Assembly (NCBI GenBank): GCA_024655905.1
Contig: JANLFP010000001.1
Coordinates: forward strand, 332,336 to 396,335
Direction of reading: 5' to 3'
DNA from: Tepidanaerobacteraceae bacterium
GTDB lineage: Bacteria; Bacillota; Thermosediminibacteria; Thermosediminibacterales; Tepidanaerobacteraceae
DNA: 64,000 nt
Shown one piece after another: positions 7,569 through 17,020 of this stretch. Positions within the stretch are counted from its first letter, which is position 1. Every line of letters begins with the position of its first letter. A program made the translations under genes and the position numbers. A model generated the notes under the pieces. It was not told the DNA's origin, did not search any database, and saw only the letters and a program-made list of their open reading frames with translations.

Positions 7569-9494
7569 CTACGAATTATACACTATCCTGCCGGTGTCCC
7601 TGGTATCGTACCCTCCCAAGGCCCCGACCTTTTGCTTGAATTCTGCGGTATTTATGACCCACAGCATCTTTTGGACCGAGTCCAGATTGAAATATTCTTC
7701 CGGAATGGCTAAATCGTACTCTTCCGGCGACACCGGGATAAAGTGGAGCCCCAGGGCGCTGGCTGCCGCCATTATGCCAAGGCCCGCATCGGCGCTGCCC
7801 CCTGCCACCGCCGCAGCCACCGCCATATGGGTGTATTCCTCTCTATCATATCCCCGGACCTCATCGGGGGATATTCCCAGCTCTTTCAACTTCAAGTCTA
7901 AAAGCAATCTCGTGCCCGCTCCCTTCTGGCGGTTGATGAACAGCACATCTGACCTCTTCAAATCCTGAATGCCTTTTATGCCTTTTGGATTACCCCTTTG
8001 CACCATGAGGCCCTGCTGGCGTCGGACGAGATTAACCAGTACCATGCTTTTCTGCGGCAGATATCTTTTTACATAGGAAACATTATATTCTCCGGTATTG
8101 GGGTCCAGAAGGTGTATGCCCGCCATGTGGCATTCTCCGCGCTTCAGGGCCATGATGCCTCCCATGCTTCCCACATGGGCCGAAGATATATTCATCTCCT
8201 GATAATATTTTTTGACTTCCGTTGCCAAAAGATCAATGGTTATGTCATGGCTTCCTATGATGACTACGGTATTTTCAATTTCTTGCCTTTTTTTCAGAAG
8301 CTCCACTTCTACTCGTTCACCTGCTTCGAAGCCTTCCTTCAAAGCGGGTATCCTGACAATGCCGTCGGCCCGCACCAGAGACGTGATCACTCCGGCACCC
8401 CTCGAAAGAGGCGAAGCACAGATCCTGTCTCCAATGCGTCCCAGTTTAACCCTCAGAAATTCTTCGGTGCCTATGGCCGACACCACCCGCCGGGTCATGA
8501 CAGCATCCAGTTTTTCCGGTTCGGGCACAGGCACGCCCTGCATCATGCAAAGCATGGGCTTCGCAAAAAGTTCCATGGTGAGAGCCGCGGATACGGGATA
8601 ACCTGGTATGCCCAGGATCGGTTTTTCTCCGATTATCCCGAGCGCCACCGGCTTGCCCGGCCTTATGGCCACGCCGTGCACAATAAGGCTTCCCAATTCC
8701 GATATGCATTTTGAAGTATAGTCCTCTGACCCTGCCGAAGATCCGGCGTTTATTATGATTACATCAGATTTTTCCAGCGATTCCTTAACTTTCTCTTTTA
8801 TTTTTTCATAATCGTCCTCGACCTTCTCAGTTACCAGCGCTTTTGCTCCCCATTCTTCAACGAAGCCTGCCAGCATGGCTGAATTGGATTCTATGATATC
8901 GCCGGGCTTCAGCTCCGCTCCGGGAGCCACAAGTTCGGTACCAGTAGGTATGATGGCCACCACAGGTTTTCTTCGCACCGACACCTCCACGTGTCCCCCC
9001 GCCAAAAGCGCACTCAAGTCTTGTGGCCGCAGCCGGTGGCTTTCCGGCACGATGAGCTCCGTGGCCACTATATCCTCCCCGATGCTCCTTACGTTGTCCC
9101 AGGGCGAACAGGCTTTGATTATCTCAACTTCTCCATTTCCGACAGGATGGACTTCTTCAATCATTATCACCGAGTCAAATCCTTCGGGCAACGGGTCTCC
9201 GGTGTCCACATATTTAAAGTGAATCCCTTCTTTCAATCTCACGGGATTTTTTTCATCGGCTCCAAACGTGTGCTTTGCCGCAATCGCTATACCGTCCATG
9301 GCGGCCGCATGATAGTGCGGCGAGGAAATCTTTGCAAATACGGGCTCCGCCGTAATTCTGCCCAGTGCCCGTCGGACATCAATTGTCTCCGGGCTGCGTG
9401 GTGTTAAAGCCCCTGCTGACTGAAGGGTTTCAAAGAATATTTTTTTTGCTTCATCCAAAGGCATATTGTCCAGATAAACATCTCTTTTTTTCAT
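7569..9494 (-). CDS. moeA: MoeA molybdotransferase fused to a periplasmic-binding-like domain
   Basis: About 410 N-terminal residues form a MoeA unit (TGDPLPEGFDSVIMIEE, IPTGTELV, NAGSSAGSEDY and GIPGYPVSAA motifs), which inserts molybdate or tungstate into adenylylated molybdopterin. The last 200 or so residues are a LysR-substrate/PBP-like domain (MALKRGECHMAGIHLLDP, VQRGNPKGI, NRQKGAGTRLLLD, EEYTHMAVAAAVAGGSADAG) of the type that can bind oxyanions. The start at 9494 (MKKRDVYL) is chosen because AAAGGAG lies 8 nt upstream; a longer frame to 9659 would overlap moeA. Lies 13 bp behind the other moeA. Metal sensing by the fused domain is an inference. Confidence 0.92.
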   Translation of the reverse strand: MKKRDVYLDNMPLDEAKKIFFETLQSAGALTPRSPETIDVRRALGRITAEPVFAKISSPHYHAAAMDGIAIAAKHTFGADEKNPVRLKEGIHFKYVDTGDPLPEGFDSVIMIEEVHPVGNGEVEIIKACSPWDNVRSIGEDIVATELIVPESHRLRPQDLSALLAGGHVEVSVRRKPVVAIIPTGTELVAPGAELKPGDIIESNSAMLAGFVEEWGAKALVTEKVEDDYEKIKEKVKESLEKSDVIIINAGSSAGSEDYTSKCISELGSLIVHGVAIRPGKPVALGIIGEKPILGIPGYPVSAALTMELFAKPMLCMMQGVPVPEPEKLDAVMTRRVVSAIGTEEFLRVKLGRIGDRICASPLSRGAGVITSLVRADGIVRIPALKEGFEAGERVEVELLKKRQEIENTVVIIGSHDITIDLLATEVKKYYQEMNISSAHVGSMGGIMALKRGECHMAGIHLLDPNTGEYNVSYVKRYLPQKSMVLVNLVRRQQGLMVQRGNPKGIKGIQDLKRSDVLFINRQKGAGTRLLLDLKLKELGISPDEVRGYDREEYTHMAVAAAVAGGSADAGLGIMAAASALGLHFIPVSPEEYDLAIPEEYFNLDSVQKMLWVINTAEFKQKVGALGGYDTRDTGRIVYNS

Positions 9495-9507
9495 AAAAAT
9501 ACTCCTT

Positions 9508-10749
9508 TTAATATAGTTCCACTTCCACAAGTTCTCCTTCCGCCACTCCCTGTTTCTGTGACGGGATATGCGCCAGGCCGCAGGATTCCACCATGCCGGA
9601 AATAAGCCCGGACTTTCCCAGAACCGGCACCGCCCAGAGTTCTTCTCCCCTGCGCTCAAGCTTCACCCTGATGTAATCCTGTCTTCCGGCAGCAGATGGC
9701 ACATTCCTGGACATTCTTGCAAGTATCCTCGTCGTTCCGAAATCCTCATCTCTTCCCAGCATCATGGATATCATCGGTCTGACTATAATTTCAAAAATCA
9801 CCATGGCCGATACTGGATGCCCGGGAAGGCCAATGACGGGTTTTCCATCCACCACCGCCACCACCGTAGGCTTGCCTGGTTTTACAGGAAGACCGTGGGC
9901 CAGCACGCCGGGCTTTCCGAGATTCTCAATCACCTTTACCGTAAGATCGCGGGTTCCCACGGAGCTTCCGCCCGACAATACAACCGCATCGCTTTTCTCT
10001 AGAGCCAATTTTATTGCATCGTACAATTTCTGAAAATCATCCTTCACTATACCCAGGGGCATGGGCACACCCCCCCATCGGATAACCTGGCCGCAGATGG
10101 AATAGGTGTTGATATCCCTCACTTCCCCCGGCTTTATGGATTCTCCGGGAGGCTTTACTTCGTTTCCGGTAGAGATGACGCAAATCACCGGCGGCTTTAC
10201 TGCCTTAACTTCCCGAATACCGAGGGCTGCCAGGGCGCCAAGGTCCTGCGGCCTGAGGGTATGGCCCCTGCTAAGCACTATATCGCCCCTTTTCATGTCT
10301 TCGCCTATTGCCACCACATTTTCCCCCGGAGTCACCGGCCTTTCAACGCACAATGTGGTGTCATCCATCAGTTGTGCATATTCCAGCATAACGACGGCGT
10401 CAGAGCCCTCCGGCAGCATCCCTCCGGTCGGTATTTTTGCAGCTTCTCCAGTGGAAAGTTTTATGTTCGTCTTTTCTCCCATGGCTATTTCTCCCACCAG
10501 GGTCAAAAGAGCGGGCATTGCCTCGCTCGCCCCGAAGGTATCTCCTGCTTTCAGCGCAAATCCATCCACGGTGGAACGATTGAAACCAGGTATGTCTTCC
10601 GGCGAAAAAATATCTTCCGCCAGCACCCGATTGTAGGCCGAAAAGAGGTCAACGCTTTCGATTTTATGCTCGAAGCCCTGGAGGTGAGTTTTCAAAAGGC
10701 TTTTCGCCTGTTCTACTGTAACGGCGCTGAACAAAGGCAATCGACTCAT
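9508..10749 (-). CDS. moeA: Molybdopterin molybdenumtransferase MoeA
   Basis: 413 residues covering the three MoeA domains: an N-terminal region (FNRSTVDGFALKAGDTFG), PTGGMLPEGSDAVVMLEYA near residues 110-130, the MogA-like domain with STGNEV, LSGGSSVGTRDLT and GLPGHPVSAMV, and a C-terminal beta domain. It releases AMP and places the metal in the cofactor. First gene of the operon. Two MoeA proteins side by side often mark organisms using both molybdenum and tungsten enzymes; that is an inference here. Confidence 0.94.
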   Translation of the reverse strand: MSRLPLFSAVTVEQAKSLLKTHLQGFEHKIESVDLFSAYNRVLAEDIFSPEDIPGFNRSTVDGFALKAGDTFGASEAMPALLTLVGEIAMGEKTNIKLSTGEAAKIPTGGMLPEGSDAVVMLEYAQLMDDTTLCVERPVTPGENVVAIGEDMKRGDIVLSRGHTLRPQDLGALAALGIREVKAVKPPVICVISTGNEVKPPGESIKPGEVRDINTYSICGQVIRWGGVPMPLGIVKDDFQKLYDAIKLALEKSDAVVLSGGSSVGTRDLTVKVIENLGKPGVLAHGLPVKPGKPTVVAVVDGKPVIGLPGHPVSAMVIFEIIVRPMISMMLGRDEDFGTTRILARMSRNVPSAAGRQDYIRVKLERRGEELWAVPVLGKSGLISGMVESCGLAHIPSQKQGVAEGELVEVELY

Positions 10750-10894: not shown

Positions 10895-12193
10895 TTGCCG
10901 CCCGAAAATAATAGTGAAAAACCTCAAAACGAGAAACGGATGCTTAGAGCGAACTTCAACGCCATAAGTTTTGACGCCATTTTTTTCAACACCGCTTCAG
11001 CCTTTTTGGACCCGGGAACGGTCATACCATCTTTTGTGAGCATGCTGACGGATTCCCCTGTGCTCATTGGCCTTACTACAACTATAAGAAACTGCGGATG
11101 GTTTTTGCCCCAGCTTCTTGTGGCCCACCGGGTTCAGGCACTGCCTTATAAGAAGCCTGTGGTGCTCTGGGCAGGAGCGAGCCTGAGGCTTTCGGCCTGC
11201 ATAATGGCGCTGTCCGCTCTGCTGGCCACCGAAAATCCGAAACTGGCACTGCTTTTGTTTTATTTCTTTTTTATAATATTGTCTTTTTCCGACGGAATTA
11301 CTGGGGTGCCGTGGATTGACATTTTTGCCAAATCCATCCCTCCTGAACGACGTGGAAAATATTACGCCTTGACTCAATTTTTGGGCGGAAGCCTTGCCTT
11401 CGGAGCGGGCATTATCATTAAAAAAATCCTCGACAGTAAACACCTTGCCTTCCCCAATAATTATTTTATCATATTCATGCTGGGATTTATCCTGCAGGTC
11501 ATGTCCTTTGCATCTTTTACCAGAGTAAAGGAAATTATGTCGGAAACGCAGCCTGCTCAGGAGAACCTCATGGAATTCCTGACCAGAATACCTCAATTAT
11601 TCAGGCAGGATGCCACATTGAGAAAGCTCATCCTTATAAATACCCTGGTGAGGTTTTTCTTTTTGCCCCTGCCCTTTTATGTGATATTTGCATCGGATAA
11701 GCTCGGGCTTTCCGGCGATATGGTGGGATATTTCGTGTCATCGCAGATGCTGGGATATATACTTGCCGGGGTGATTTTCGGCAGAATAAATGATTATATC
11801 GGCAGCAGAGCGGTTATTTTGATTACCGGTTTTGTTACCATGCTCCAGCCGGTTTTTGCCTTAATCAGCCAATTTCTACATGCAAATGGCTGTCCATTTA
11901 TTTTTCTTTACACTGCCATTTTTGCACTGATAGGTGCTACTTACAGCGGAGTGTGGGTGGGCATATTCAATTACCTTCTGAAAATCGCTCCGGAGGAAAA
12001 CAGGCCTTTATACATAGGGCTTTTGAACACGGTAACCGCTCCCACCACTTTTTTGCCGATAATAGGCGGCTTTTTGATAAATAAATTCGACTATGCATTT
12101 TTATTCGCAGCCTCATTCATCGCCGTTTTTGCGGGTTTTCTCGCATCCTTTGCGTTAAAAGAAGAATTCAAAGCCGTGCAAAAAAATCGATAA
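10895..12193 (+). CDS. MFS transporter
   Basis: 432 residues with about 12 hydrophobic segments after a polar N-terminal 20 residues; typical of major facilitator proteins. Substrate not recognised. TTG start at 10895 with GGAGG 7 nt upstream. The PPERRGKYYALTQFLGG and VILITGFV segments resemble the A-like loops of drug or sugar MFS members, but no subfamily is clear. Divergent from the molybdenum cofactor operon and followed by the liv promoter; no strong terminator is seen behind it. Confidence 0.8.
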   Translation: MPPENNSEKPQNEKRMLRANFNAISFDAIFFNTASAFLDPGTVIPSFVSMLTDSPVLIGLTTTIRNCGWFLPQLLVAHRVQALPYKKPVVLWAGASLRLSACIMALSALLATENPKLALLLFYFFFIILSFSDGITGVPWIDIFAKSIPPERRGKYYALTQFLGGSLAFGAGIIIKKILDSKHLAFPNNYFIIFMLGFILQVMSFASFTRVKEIMSETQPAQENLMEFLTRIPQLFRQDATLRKLILINTLVRFFFLPLPFYVIFASDKLGLSGDMVGYFVSSQMLGYILAGVIFGRINDYIGSRAVILITGFVTMLQPVFALISQFLHANGCPFIFLYTAIFALIGATYSGVWVGIFNYLLKIAPEENRPLYIGLLNTVTAPTTFLPIIGGFLINKFDYAFLFAASFIAVFAGFLASFALKEEFKAVQKNR

Positions 12194-12209
12194 ATCCCTG
12201 ACTTTGTTA

Positions 12210-12238
12210 GTGACATTTTATAAAAATTAGATTATAAT
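12210..12238 (+). promoter_or_regulatory. Promoter of the liv operon
   Basis: -35 GTGACA (12210-12215), 17-bp spacer, -10 TATAAT (12233-12238). It lies about 45 bp before the riboswitch aptamer, a normal leader distance. Confidence 0.75.
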
Positions 12239-12280
12239 ATAAGCAAAATTTTATTTGTGCAGGCATCTGCGGTAAAGTTT

Positions 12281-12390
12281 CAGGTGGGAGTGTACCTAGG
12301 GTTCCGGCGATGAGCGGCAGGTCCAAGCGGTACAGCAAATTTTTGTACACCGTGGGTATAAAAGACCCCAGCGGCAGGTTCCACCCGTGT
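12281..12390 (+). promoter_or_regulatory. ykkC-family riboswitch, probably the ppGpp-type variant
   Basis: The leader shows the hallmark ykkC block ACCTAGGGTTCCGG (from 12294), then GGTCCAAGCGGTAC, and later CCGTGGGTATAAAAGACCC and AGCGGCAGG. Helices can be drawn: an outer stem 12283-12289 with 12379-12385, GTACC 12292-12296 with GGTAC 12329-12333, and a P3-like stem CCG.GGGT / ACCC..CGG (about 12350-12373). The ykkC fold has variants for guanidine, ppGpp, PRPP and nucleotide diphosphates. The genes behind it import branched-chain amino acids, a known context of the ppGpp class, so that ligand is inferred. The expression platform is unclear. Confidence 0.82.
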
Positions 12391-12434
12391 TTTGTCATGG
12401 GCAAACCGCCGCTTTTATTTGCCGGAGGTGATGG

Positions 12435-12494
12435 ATGGTTATAGATTTTTCATTTTGTTTACAGAGGCAACGTATTAACTTTTCAAATTATTAA
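12435..12494 (+). CDS. Possible 19-residue leader ORF
   Basis: Between the aptamer and livK, GGAGG stands 6 nt before an ATG that opens a 19-codon frame (MVIDFSFCLQ...), whose TAA touches the livK ribosome binding site. It may be a translated leader coupled to livK or only a chance frame; the strong Shine-Dalgarno is the sole support. Confidence 0.25.
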   Translation: MVIDFSFCLQRQRINFSNY

Positions 12495-12507
12495 AAGGGG
12501 GATCTTT

Positions 12508-13698
12508 ATGTTTAAACTTTCAAAAACTTTGATTTTGCTCATTGTAATGGCATTAACGCTTCTTGCTCTGGCCGGATGCGGTCAGTCTCAATCAAGCAGT
12601 TCATCCGGCTCCTCAAGTTCAACGAGCTCTTCGAATTCTTCCGAACAGCCCAAGGGCGATGACGTCATCAAGATTGGCACCCTCGGACCGCTCACGGGAA
12701 ATACCGCCACTTACGGCATAAGCACAAAAAACGGTGTGGAAGTGGCAGTGGATGAAATAAACAAAGCGGGTGGAATCAACGGAAAGCAGGTCAAGCTGTT
12801 CTCCGAAGACACCAGGGGAGATCAGACCGAAGCTGCCAATGCCGTCACGAAGCTTATAGAGCAGGATAAGGTAATAGCCATCGTGGGCGGCGTATTGAGC
12901 TCCGAAACGATGACCGCCGGCCCCATCGGCAACGACGCCAAAGTTGTCATGATATCATCTTCCTCAACCGCTTCCGGAATCCCGGATATCGGAAAGTATA
13001 TTTTCAGAAATTGCCTTTCCGATGATGTCCAGGCCACTCAGCTGGCAGAATATGCGGCCAAGGATTTAGGGCTTAAAAAATTCGCCATAATTTACACCAA
13101 CAACGACTACGGCCTTTCCCTCAAAAACGCCTTTGAAAAGAAGGCCAAAGAAGTGGCGGAAGTGGTGGATATAGAAACATACAACGACGGAGAAAGCGAC
13201 TTTCGAGCACAGCTCACCAAGATAAAGGGATTTGGCCCCGATGCCCTCTATATAGCAGGCTACTATACCGAAGCCGCAAAAATTGCCCAACAGGCTCAGG
13301 AACAGGGTTTGAAAGCGCAGATCCTCGGCGCCGACGGATTCTATTCGCCCAAACTGGTTGAACTCGGAGGCAAATCCGTGGAAGGAGCAATATTCACTGC
13401 GGGCTTCTTTGCAGACGATCCCAGCGACAGCGTGCAGAACTTTGTAAAAGCATACAAGGAAAAATACAATAGCGAACCCGACATGTTTGCCGCCCAGGCC
13501 TACGACGCCGCAAAAATCCTTCTTACTGCCATCAAGAACGCCAACGGCGAAGGCGGCGAGGCACTGCAGGCAGAAATGGCGAAAACCAAAGATTTCCCTG
13601 GCATTACCGGGAATACATCCTTTGCCGAGAACGGCGATGCCGTAAAGGATATCATAATCCTCAAGGTCGAGAACGGCAAATTTACAAAGCTGCGTTAA
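12508..13698 (+). CDS. livK: Branched-chain amino acid ABC transporter substrate-binding lipoprotein
   Basis: Captures leucine, isoleucine, valine or a related amino acid outside the membrane for LivHMGF. The lipoprotein signal ends LALAGC (Cys 23) and is followed by a 25-residue Ser-rich linker. The mature part has the Leu/Ile/Val-binding fold (IKIGTLGPLTG, AVDEINKAGGINGKQV, TKLIEQDKVIAIVGG, IISSSSTASGI). 396 residues, normal length. Good RBS (AAAGGGGGATC). First gene of livKHMGF behind a ykkC-type riboswitch. Exact amino acid specificity is not readable. Confidence 0.93.
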   Translation: MFKLSKTLILLIVMALTLLALAGCGQSQSSSSSGSSSSTSSSNSSEQPKGDDVIKIGTLGPLTGNTATYGISTKNGVEVAVDEINKAGGINGKQVKLFSEDTRGDQTEAANAVTKLIEQDKVIAIVGGVLSSETMTAGPIGNDAKVVMISSSSTASGIPDIGKYIFRNCLSDDVQATQLAEYAAKDLGLKKFAIIYTNNDYGLSLKNAFEKKAKEVAEVVDIETYNDGESDFRAQLTKIKGFGPDALYIAGYYTEAAKIAQQAQEQGLKAQILGADGFYSPKLVELGGKSVEGAIFTAGFFADDPSDSVQNFVKAYKEKYNSEPDMFAAQAYDAAKILLTAIKNANGEGGEALQAEMAKTKDFPGITGNTSFAENGDAVKDIIILKVENGKFTKLR

Positions 13699-13764: not shown

Positions 13765-14658
13765 ATGGATACTCACATGTTCTTTCAGCAGTTTTTCGCA
13801 CAAGTTATGAACGGTTTGACGCTTGGAAGCACATACGCTCTCATCGCTCTCGGATACACCATGGTATACGGAATACTGGAACTCATAAATTTCGCTCATA
13901 GCGAGATATATATGACCGGCGCCTTTGTGGGCCTCATCATGGTTACAGTATACAAACTTCCGTTTGCAGCGGCGCTCCTTGCGGGGATGGCCGGTTCCTG
14001 CATTTTAGGAGTGATTATTGAAAAGATTGCTTACAGGCCTTTAAGAAAGGCAACCCGAATAGCACCGCTCATCAGTGCCATAGGGGTGTCCATTTTTTTG
14101 CAGAATGCGGCTCTGCTGGTTTTCGGCCCCCAGGCCAGGGCATTTCCTGCCAATTTCAGTGCTGCAGCTTTAAATTTTGGCTTTGTGCAGATTTCATCCC
14201 TGCAGCTTTTAATTCTTGTGATTTCCGTTTTGCTGATGATAGGCCTGCATCTCTTGATTCACAGGACAAAAATCGGGCAGGCAATGAGGGCTACAGCTCA
14301 GGATAAGGAAACGGCCCAGCTCATGGGCATAAGGATTGACAGGGTCATCTCTTTTACATTTGCAATAGGGTCGGCTCTGGGCGGTGCCGCGGGCGTATTG
14401 GTGGGAGTATACTTCAATTCCGCTGACCCCATGATGGGTTTTTTCCCCGGCCTCAAAGGCTTCGTAGCGGCTGTGCTGGGAGGTATAGGCAACATCCCCG
14501 GAGCCATGGTCGGCGGGTTGATTCTTGGATTGGCCGAGGTTTTCGGAGCAGTATACATGTCCCAGTATAAGGATGCCATAGCATTTGCCGTGCTGATACT
14601 CATTTTGCTGTTTAAGCCCACCGGTCTCATGGGCCGAAGGATTCAGGAGAAAGTGTAG
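13765..14658 (+). CDS. livH: Branched-chain amino acid ABC transporter permease LivH
   Basis: Inner-membrane channel subunit, 297 residues, about 8 hydrophobic segments, with the family start NGLTLGSTYALIALGYTMVYG and the cytoplasmic coupling region MRATAQDKETAQLMGI. The first ATG (13765) abuts the AAAGGA ribosome binding site; the second, at 13777, is an equally possible start. Pairs with LivM; stop codon touches the livM start. Confidence 0.93.
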   Translation: MDTHMFFQQFFAQVMNGLTLGSTYALIALGYTMVYGILELINFAHSEIYMTGAFVGLIMVTVYKLPFAAALLAGMAGSCILGVIIEKIAYRPLRKATRIAPLISAIGVSIFLQNAALLVFGPQARAFPANFSAAALNFGFVQISSLQLLILVISVLLMIGLHLLIHRTKIGQAMRATAQDKETAQLMGIRIDRVISFTFAIGSALGGAAGVLVGVYFNSADPMMGFFPGLKGFVAAVLGGIGNIPGAMVGGLILGLAEVFGAVYMSQYKDAIAFAVLILILLFKPTGLMGRRIQEKV

Positions 14659-15537
14659 GTGAAGCGGATGAATTATTATTTGCAGGTATTAACAGTCATA
14701 GGAATAAACATTATCCTCGCCGTAAGCCTCAATCTTGTATCGGGTTTCACCGGGCAGCTTTCCCTCGGGCATGCCACCTTCATGGGCATCGGCGCATATA
14801 CGGCCACACTGCTGGCCTTAAAGCTTCATGTTCCCTTTATTCCATCCTTGATTTTTGGAGCCGCCATGGCCGCATTTTTCGGCTTCATAATAGGAGTTCC
14901 AACGCTGAGGCTTAAGGGCGACTACCTGGCCATCGCCACGCTGGGATTCGGCGAAATCATGAAGAATATCCTCTTAAACCTGAAAATCACGGGCGGTCCC
15001 ATGGGACTCCGCGGCATTCCCAAAGTCACCAATATCTATATAGTGGCGGCAGCAGTTGTAGTAGTGATTTTTACTCTGAACAGGATTATGATTTCCCGGG
15101 TGGGCAAATCCTTCATAGCCATCAGGGAAGATGAACTGGCGGCCGAAGCTATGGGGATTAATACAACGAACTACAAGATTCTGGCATTTACCATCGGCGC
15201 CTTTTATGCGGGCATAGCAGGAGGCCTTTTTGCCTTCCTCTTCCGTTATATTAATCCCAATAATTTCGGTTTTATGAAATCCATAGAGATCCTTTGCATG
15301 GTGGTGCTCGGAGGCATGGGCAATACCGCCGGAGCCATTCTAGGCGCCGCTTTGCTTACGGTGCTGCCGGAGTTTCTGAGATCCGTTTCACCGCTGATTT
15401 CCCAATACCGCATGGTATTTTACGGTCTTTTGCTGGTAGTTATGATGATAGTAAGACCCCAGGGGCTTTTGAGCAATACATCTTTTTATTTCCGCCGAAT
15501 TTCTGTTGAAAAAAACGCCGGGAAAGGAGGGCGATGA
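14659..15537 (+). CDS. livM: Branched-chain amino acid ABC transporter permease LivM
   Basis: Second channel subunit, 292 residues, hydrophobic throughout, with NLVSGFTGQLSLGHATFMGIGAY near the N-terminus and the coupling loop AIREDELAAEAMGIN. GTG start at 14659 directly after the livH stop; an ATG three codons on is the alternative. Overlaps livG by 4 bp, so translation is coupled. Confidence 0.93.
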   Translation: MKRMNYYLQVLTVIGINIILAVSLNLVSGFTGQLSLGHATFMGIGAYTATLLALKLHVPFIPSLIFGAAMAAFFGFIIGVPTLRLKGDYLAIATLGFGEIMKNILLNLKITGGPMGLRGIPKVTNIYIVAAAVVVVIFTLNRIMISRVGKSFIAIREDELAAEAMGINTTNYKILAFTIGAFYAGIAGGLFAFLFRYINPNNFGFMKSIEILCMVVLGGMGNTAGAILGAALLTVLPEFLRSVSPLISQYRMVFYGLLLVVMMIVRPQGLLSNTSFYFRRISVEKNAGKGGR

Positions 15538-16322
15538 GCATGGCGCTTTTAGAAGGAAAAAATCTCACAATGATTTTCGGAGGTCTGGCGGCTCTAGATT
15601 CCGTCGATATAAACATAGAAAAGGGAGAGGTATTGAGCCTTATTGGTCCCAACGGAGCTGGCAAAACAACCCTATTCAACCTTATCACGGGCGTTTATTC
15701 GCCCACAAAAGGCTCCATCAGCTTCAAGCAAAAGGAGATTAAAAACCTGAAGCCCTATGACATCACCAGAATGGGCATTGCCCGCACCTTTCAGAACATC
15801 AGGCTCTTCGGGGAAATGAGCGTGCTGGACAACGTCATCATAGGGCAGCACTGCCGCACCCGCACCGGCGTATTCGGGGCCATTCTCAGAACATCCGCCG
15901 TTAAAAGCGAGGAAAAAAAGGTGCGCGACAGGGCAATGGAAATATTGAATTTCGTGGGCCTCGACAGGGAGGCGGAAGAAAAGGCGAAAAACCTCCCCTA
16001 CGGCAAGCAGCGCCGCCTGGAACTGGCGCGGGCTCTGGCCACTGACCCGGACCTCATGCTGCTGGATGAACCCGCCGCCGGCATGAACCCTCAGGAGACC
16101 AATGAACTCATAGGACTTATCGATAGACTGAACGACATGGGAAAAACCGTGCTCCTCATCGAGCATGACATGAAACTGGTAATGGGCATATCCCAGAGGA
16201 TAATGGTGCTGGACTACGGCAAAAAAATAGCCGATGGGCCCCCGGAAAAGATCCGCAACGATGAAAAGGTCATAAGGGCCTACCTGGGCGAAAGGTCCCG
16301 CAAGGAGGTCCGGGCATGTTAA
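15534..16322 (+). CDS. livG: Branched-chain amino acid ABC transporter ATPase LivG
   Basis: 262 residues with Walker A GPNGAGKTT (about 38-46), the family insert GMARTFQNIRLF-type stretch (GIARTFQNIRLFGEMSV), signature YGKQRRLELARAL, Walker B LMLLDEPAAGMNPQE and switch His in IEHDM. Drives transport with LivF at the cytoplasmic face. AAAGGAGG lies before the ATG. Overlaps livF by 7 bp. Confidence 0.95.
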   Translation: MSMALLEGKNLTMIFGGLAALDSVDINIEKGEVLSLIGPNGAGKTTLFNLITGVYSPTKGSISFKQKEIKNLKPYDITRMGIARTFQNIRLFGEMSVLDNVIIGQHCRTRTGVFGAILRTSAVKSEEKKVRDRAMEILNFVGLDREAEEKAKNLPYGKQRRLELARALATDPDLMLLDEPAAGMNPQETNELIGLIDRLNDMGKTVLLIEHDMKLVMGISQRIMVLDYGKKIADGPPEKIRNDEKVIRAYLGERSRKEVRAC

Positions 16323-17020
16323 AACTGGAAAACGTTGTGACGCACTATGGAAACATACAGGCATTGAAAGGCATTTCCCTGGAAATAAGCCGCGGTGAGA
16401 TAGCAACGGTTATCGGAGCCAACGGAGCAGGAAAGACAACTACTTTGAAGGCCATATGCGGCCTGGTCGGCGTTACTTCGGGAAAGATTTTTTTTGAGGA
16501 AAAAGACATAACGGGCAAGCCAACCCCGGATATCGTGAGCTCGGGCATTGCCATGGTGCCGGAGGGCCGGCGCATTTTCCCCCGCATGTCGGTGCTGGAA
16601 AACCTTCAGCTGGGCGCATACCTGAATAATGACAAAAATGATGTGCGCAAAGACATGGAGAGGGTCTTTGAGCTTTTTCCCATATTAAAGCAGCGTCTGA
16701 AACAGGTGGCCGGCACCCTGTCGGGCGGAGAGCAGCAGATGCTGGCCATAGGAAGGGCGCTTATGGCAAAGCCCAGGCTTTTGCTCCTGGATGAACCTTC
16801 CATGGGCCTGGCACCAATGATCGTTTCGAGCATATTCGATATCATCACAGAGATAAATCAGAGCGGCACCACCATCCTCCTGGTAGAGCAAAACGCCCAG
16901 ATGGCGCTTTCCATCGCGCATAAGGGCTATGTGCTCGAAACAGGCAGGATCGTCATGGAAGATACGGCAGAAAATCTCCTGCACAATGAACAGGTAAAAA
17001 AGGCTTATCTGGGGGAGTAG
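16316..17020 (+). CDS. livF: Branched-chain amino acid ABC transporter ATPase LivF
   Basis: 234 residues with Walker A GANGAGKTT, the LivF-type PEGRRIFPRMSVLENL, signature LSGGEQQMLAIGRALM, Walker B LLLDEPSMGLAP and switch VEQNA. Last gene of the operon; AAGGAGG in the livG end serves its ATG. A strong terminator follows at 17068. Confidence 0.95.
   Translation: MLKLENVVTHYGNIQALKGISLEISRGEIATVIGANGAGKTTTLKAICGLVGVTSGKIFFEEKDITGKPTPDIVSSGIAMVPEGRRIFPRMSVLENLQLGAYLNNDKNDVRKDMERVFELFPILKQRLKQVAGTLSGGEQQMLAIGRALMAKPRLLLLDEPSMGLAPMIVSSIFDIITEINQSGTTILLVEQNAQMALSIAHKGYVLETGRIVMEDTAENLLHNEQVKKAYLGE

Follow-up and report, generated by a model that had tools for sequence, protein, structure and literature searches.

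Results

A promoter and a structured leader precede a branched-chain amino acid importer operon

The window analysed here is a 64-kb stretch of the genome of a Tepidanaerobacteraceae bacterium. On its + strand lie five genes, livJHMGF, that encode a Liv-type ABC importer (leucine, isoleucine, valine), bearing out the first-pass annotation, which had placed a branched-chain amino acid importer here. For all five proteins the NCBIfam models of branched-chain amino acid transporters outscored those of urea transporters, yet the scores lay under the curated cut-offs. The start codon of livJ is reached after a promoter and a structured leader, whose elements are collected in Table 1. Elsewhere in the window (7569-10749, - strand), two adjoining open reading frames have, by eye, the look of MoeA-type molybdopterin enzymes.

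Table 1. Features of the leader and operon, in window coordinates. Base numbering follows passages of PMC6031431.
Feature	Position	Strand	Evidence or detail
Sigma-70-type promoter	12210..12238	+	GTGACA - 17 nt - TATAAT, 11/12
ykkC subtype-2a (ppGpp-type) aptamer	12283..12385	+	R1 91.0 bits, E 8.8e-23; RF00442 42.1 bits, below cut-off; blind minimum-energy fold matches that of the aptamer
P0, 5' strand (pairs with 12380-12385)	12283..12288	+	Both-side changes in 3/6 pairs, nine liv-associated aptamers
A5/G6 equivalents, predicted contacts to the 5' pyrophosphate	12289..12290	+	Numbering by counting
P1 (12291-12296 with 12329-12334) and inner helices	12291..12334	+	P1 pairs invariant among the nine
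G48 and pyrimidine C49 equivalents (guanidine-I: A)	12327..12328	+	RF00442 alignment; PMC6031431
P2 hairpin	12335..12346	+	Both-side changes in 3/5 pairs
C75 A76 C77 C78 equivalents; C75 would pair with the ppGpp guanine	12348..12351	+	PMC6031431
Terminal P3/P4 hairpin (12354-12357 with 12365-12368), loop AUAAAAG	12354..12368	+	One A-U to G-C double change in 4/9
Position-96 equivalent	12369..12370	+	C12369 by count, A12370 by CGG anchor; G in neither register
A103 G104 G105 equivalents	12376..12378	+	PMC6031431
Intrinsic terminator hairpin, takes P0 3' strand	12370..12413	+	-23.5 kcal/mol
U-tract TTTTATTT	12413..12420	+	
livJ/K substrate-binding lipoprotein (Peripla_BP_6)	12508..13698	+	
livH permease	13765..14658	+	
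livM permease	14659..15537	+	
livG ATPase	15534..16322	+	
livF ATPase	16316..17020	+	

The leader contains a complete ykkC-type aptamer

The conserved blocks from which a ykkC RNA had been proposed were found on the + strand. At gathering thresholds, an Rfam scan of the whole window returned no matches. In a permissive scan of 12150-12520, the Guanidine-I model (RF00442) matched 12285-12376 over its full length (model positions 1-107) at 42.1 bits (E 2.2e-6), short of the family cut-off of 63. It was the sole ykkC-type Rfam family to match the leader in that scan, and the two further matches at E <= 10 resembled chance (E 4.4 and 5.5). R1, a covariance model described below, scored 12283-12385 at 91.0 bits (E 8.8e-23 in 294,745 bases). 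When this segment was folded alone and unconstrained, P0, P1, P2 and P4 all appeared in the minimum-energy structure. Positions 12283-12385 hold an entire subtype-2 aptamer of the ykkC type, with the ykkC core fold that belongs to subtype 2a. The extent first given to the element (12281-12390) does hold the aptamer; its bounds gave way to 12283-12385, with a terminator that lies directly 3' and overlaps it.

Covariation was analysed in nine liv-associated aptamers (alignment A3). Within the proposed P0, P1, inner helices, P2 and P4, 97.2% of cells were paired, a share that fell to 31-47% when partners were shifted by 1-3 columns. Both-side changes occurred in seven pairs, a number reached by 0 of 500 shuffles. 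P0, a further mark of subtype 2a, was 94.4% paired with double changes in half of its six pairs. The covariation supports P0, P2 and P4.

Diagnostic bases and gene context point to ppGpp

According to passages of PMC6031431, subtype 2 ykkC RNAs replace the A46 of guanidine-I aptamers with a pyrimidine (C49) and add the P0 helix, while >97% of PRPP aptamers have G at position 96, where ppGpp aptamers have A, C or U or lack the base, a marker that the same source cautions is register-dependent. We transferred this numbering to the window by counting; the distance from CACC (75-78) to A103 is 24 nucleotides both here and in typical purine-gene aptamers. Placed in this way, the window carries the equivalents of A5, G6, G48, C49, C75, A76, C77, C78, A103, G104 and G105. 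The A46/C49 position is the pyrimidine C12328, position 96 is not G (C12369 or A12370), and C12348, the C75 equivalent, would be available for ppGpp. The pattern by which related loci were found requires C at the diagnostic position, and therefore C there is no evidence in those loci, which are drawn from among the matches listed and form no census.

By count, position 96 was G in 26 of 26 purL-associated aptamers; among the nine liv-associated aptamers it was C in seven, T in one and G in one (L136), and with the CGG anchor it was G in none of the nine. The G of L136, an aptamer belonging to a more distant livJ, counts against the ppGpp reading. Three aptamers of the ilvD group and one of the ilvE group show G when the position is counted and A when it is set by the CGG anchor. 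Since linkers in the glutamate-synthase group and in certain ilv groups vary in length, both shorter and longer, counting does not locate position 96 there. The marker is therefore clean for the window and register-dependent for part of the group.

The five genes downstream supply the amino-acid gene context of subtype 2a, which, in passages of PMC5912903 and PMC10687018, precedes genes for branched-chain amino acid metabolism, glutamate synthase and transporters; the earlier statement that ppGpp sensors are known before branched-chain amino acid genes is likewise published there.

Class-specific covariance models separate ppGpp-type from PRPP-type aptamers

A regular expression matched 139 places in 155 loci, the loci being among the matches listed. 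The aptamers kept comprised 48 PRPP-like, 51 ppGpp-like and nine liv-associated sequences, with duplicates, long sequences and unparsed ones (e.g. L114) dropped; among the ppGpp-like set, L144 and the second L150 aptamer are of the PRPP type as judged by gene or base 96, and both stood outside R1 training. R1 was built from 19 aptamers at ilv or glutamate-synthase loci (alignment A1), and R3 from 20 purine-type aptamers (alignment A2) with the canonical structure. Every liv-associated sequence and every sequence from the window's own genome was excluded from training. R2, a PRPP model with an RNAalifold structure, was set aside because that structure was not the ykkC fold, and R3 was built on the same A2.

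In a search of 38 sources with both models, the held-out aptamers were sorted without error. R1 exceeded R3 for all 21 on the ppGpp side (the eight other liv-associated aptamers and 13 further loci), and R3 exceeded R1 at 13 of 13 PRPP-side loci, of which L059, L086, L101, L105, L135, L019 (formate-THF ligase), L022 and L047 had purine genes confirmed by family or cluster and the remaining five took their label from the aptamer sequence. With both models, three guanidine-I loci stayed below 48 bits, compared with 75.9-86 under RF00442. The window scored 77.7 bits under R3, 13.3 bits below R1, a margin that is only small and is exceeded by most ilv aptamers.

These results bear directly on whether the RNA could instead be a PRPP riboswitch (subtype 2b). 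The two classes share the fold, P0 and most contact bases, and the R3 score reflects this; R1 nevertheless scores higher, neither register places at position 96 the G that every purL-associated aptamer has by count, and the downstream genes are not purine genes. We therefore reject this reading as very unlikely. The class models covered the ppGpp side, the PRPP side and guanidine-I, and the other subtype-2 classes (2c for (d)NDPs, the orphan 2d or an unrecognised variant), which would imply a different nucleotide ligand, were judged by bases and gene context. Here the guanine-pairing base C75 is retained, the genes are not the NUDIX/HAD hydrolases or EamA/TauE transporters named for 2c/2d in passages of PMC7266159, and the aptamer groups with those of ilv and glutamate-synthase loci, leaving such a class a slighter chance still. 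A guanidine-I riboswitch (subtype 1) shares the P1, P1a/b, P2 and P3 core and, as the only ykkC-type Rfam match, was the outcome that the first-pass annotation had named as contrary to its proposal. That match is formal only, since it falls below cut-off where true subtype-1 loci score well above it; given also the P0 helix, the C in place of A46 and no adjoining guanidine gene, we reject this reading as negligible in probability.

Taken together, C at the A46/C49 position, the presence of P0, the retained C75, the lack of G at position 96 and the higher R1 score support the ppGpp class that had been predicted, and the aptamer very probably detects ppGpp.

An overlapping terminator suggests an ON switch

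Folding revealed a terminator hairpin followed by a U-tract directly downstream of the aptamer. The hairpin was absent from the + strand list of a terminator scan, presumably because of its internal loop. The free minimum-energy fold turns to the terminator once 12412 has been transcribed (-50.1 kcal/mol, compared with -40.4 kcal/mol with the aptamer held). In the predicted folds, 12377-12385 belong both to the terminator and to P0 with the ligand site, and the 5' arm of the hairpin (12370-12389) includes G104/G105 and the P0 3' strand, so that bound ligand and terminator would be mutually exclusive and ligand binding should switch livJHMGF on. An ON mechanism of this kind, with a terminator competing against the ligand-bound aptamer, is described for ppGpp riboswitches in passages of PMC10687018.

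According to this model, in the absence of ppGpp P0 would be labile, the hairpin would form and transcription would end at the U-tract. During amino-acid starvation a RelA/SpoT enzyme would produce (p)ppGpp; the genome encodes one RelA/SpoT-domain protein, in a 736-codon frame. The binding site would lie between P0 and P3/P4: C12348 would pair with the guanine of the ligand, and A12289, G12290, G12327, C12350 and G12377-12378 would hold the pyrophosphates. Bound ppGpp would lock P0 and occupy the 5' arm of the terminator, and hence the importer would be made. From the terminator geometry and the published relatives, we infer that ppGpp switches the importer on in response to starvation, and we consider it highly probable that the leader is a subtype-2a ykkC riboswitch for ppGpp that controls livJHMGF as an ON switch acting at transcription termination.

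The aptamer is linked to livJ in most genomes of the window's family that have an orthologue

R1 aptamers were found in 23 of 26 genomes of the class. A livJ orthologue (at least 73% identity) was present in 16 genomes, and in 12 of these an aptamer lies directly upstream; all 12 belong to the window's family. The four operons lacking it come from three sister-family genomes and from a single member of the window's own family (L194), so the link between aptamer and liv operon is not universal. In the three sister-family leaders a pattern search found neither the promoter block nor an aptamer. In the L194 leader (genome G012) the aptamer is lost, whereas the promoter remains, as does a terminator-like hairpin whose two arms carry matching changes. 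With filters off, none of the four leaders gave an R1 match at E < 2, and Rfam gave no riboswitch and no T-box; a match to a miRNA family (E 0.0089) was judged to be chance. No plasmid record matched the window's leader in a distant blastn search.

The decay in L194 raises the question of whether the window's aptamer, too, was once functional and has lost switching, a reading with next to no probability, as its contact bases, helices and terminator are all intact and the helices covary among relatives.

The window's own genome holds three R1 aptamers in total. One of the others precedes a gene for a glutamate-synthase-type class-II glutamine amidotransferase, a name that we read from its place beside Glu_synthase genes in relatives. 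The third (L003, G000:C22) is a ppGpp-type aptamer (1499-1611) followed by a T-box (1641-1882; 80 bits, E 9.5e-18, below the family cut-off of 93) before ilvB. This leader resembles the ppGpp/T-box(Leu) tandems already tabulated in PMC9481103 (Table 2), whereas the window's leader has the ppGpp aptamer only. The livJ link, the two further aptamers with their genes and the RelA/SpoT-domain protein all speak for the ppGpp reading.

Several further observations were made among the related loci. Between terminator and livJ, a stretch like ATATTTACGAATTG(A/C)GTT is conserved in L197, L198, L194, L202 and L200 and is not conserved in the window's leader. At L058, L068 and L075, ppGpp-type aptamers precede a cluster of ~440-460 aa proteins, of which the L058 member matches phenylacetate--CoA ligase; this context was not found named in the literature passages. 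ABC-transporter ATPase genes follow a separate group of ykkC RNAs with C49 (CACTTTTAGG...GGACGAGTCTC) at L042, L048, L051 and related loci.

A possible CodY operator in the promoter spacer

The promoter block TTAGTGAC-N12-TTAGATTATAAT (or its TAGTGAC form) occurs in 12 of 13 livJ-orthologue leaders examined. Within the window's promoter spacer (12214-12228) lies a CodY-box-like dyad with three mismatches to the consensus. A similar dyad recurs, with variation, in related leaders, and the genome encodes CodY. None of 5000 column permutations gave as good a box on the promoter spacers, a null that is lenient, because shuffling splits T and A runs of a kind that ordinary promoters may contain. 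Single CodY-like sites in the window number 10 against a mean of 6.5, a count equalled or exceeded in 15 of 100 shuffles and so at chance level. With a lenient null and chance-level single sites, the box remains a lead. It is conceivable, though on balance doubtful, that the liv leader is a two-layer starvation switch in which the T4-N3-A4 dyad operator would derepress when GTP and isoleucine drop and the ppGpp aptamer would then pass the transcripts.

Discussion

The RNA described here is an ordinary sensor of a known type, and its general biology is already known and brings little surprise. Its P0-P4 architecture, contact bases, branched-chain amino acid context and predicted ON-type terminator overlapping the closing helix are like those of the ppGpp riboswitches in passages of PMC6031431, PMC10687018 and PMC10112252; we see no difference of substance, and a Liv-type importer operon falls under the branched-chain amino acid transport of PMC10687018. 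Passages of the literature on ppGpp riboswitches with ABC transporters or livJ contained no description of this operon, and the livJ motif of PMC11109978, mostly from Streptomyces, is a separate candidate. RNAs of this sort are overlooked when library models are run at their default cut-offs, as the empty Rfam result for the window illustrates.

If the two-layer arrangement were true, the L194 genome, with promoter and terminator kept and the aptamer lost, would provide a natural test of the second layer. With the ppGpp riboswitch proposed here, the ppGpp-riboswitch regulon gains an importer operon that is well supported, and within one genome the synthesis of branched-chain amino acids (ilvB), their import (liv) and a glutamate-synthase-type gene would share the same RNA sensor.
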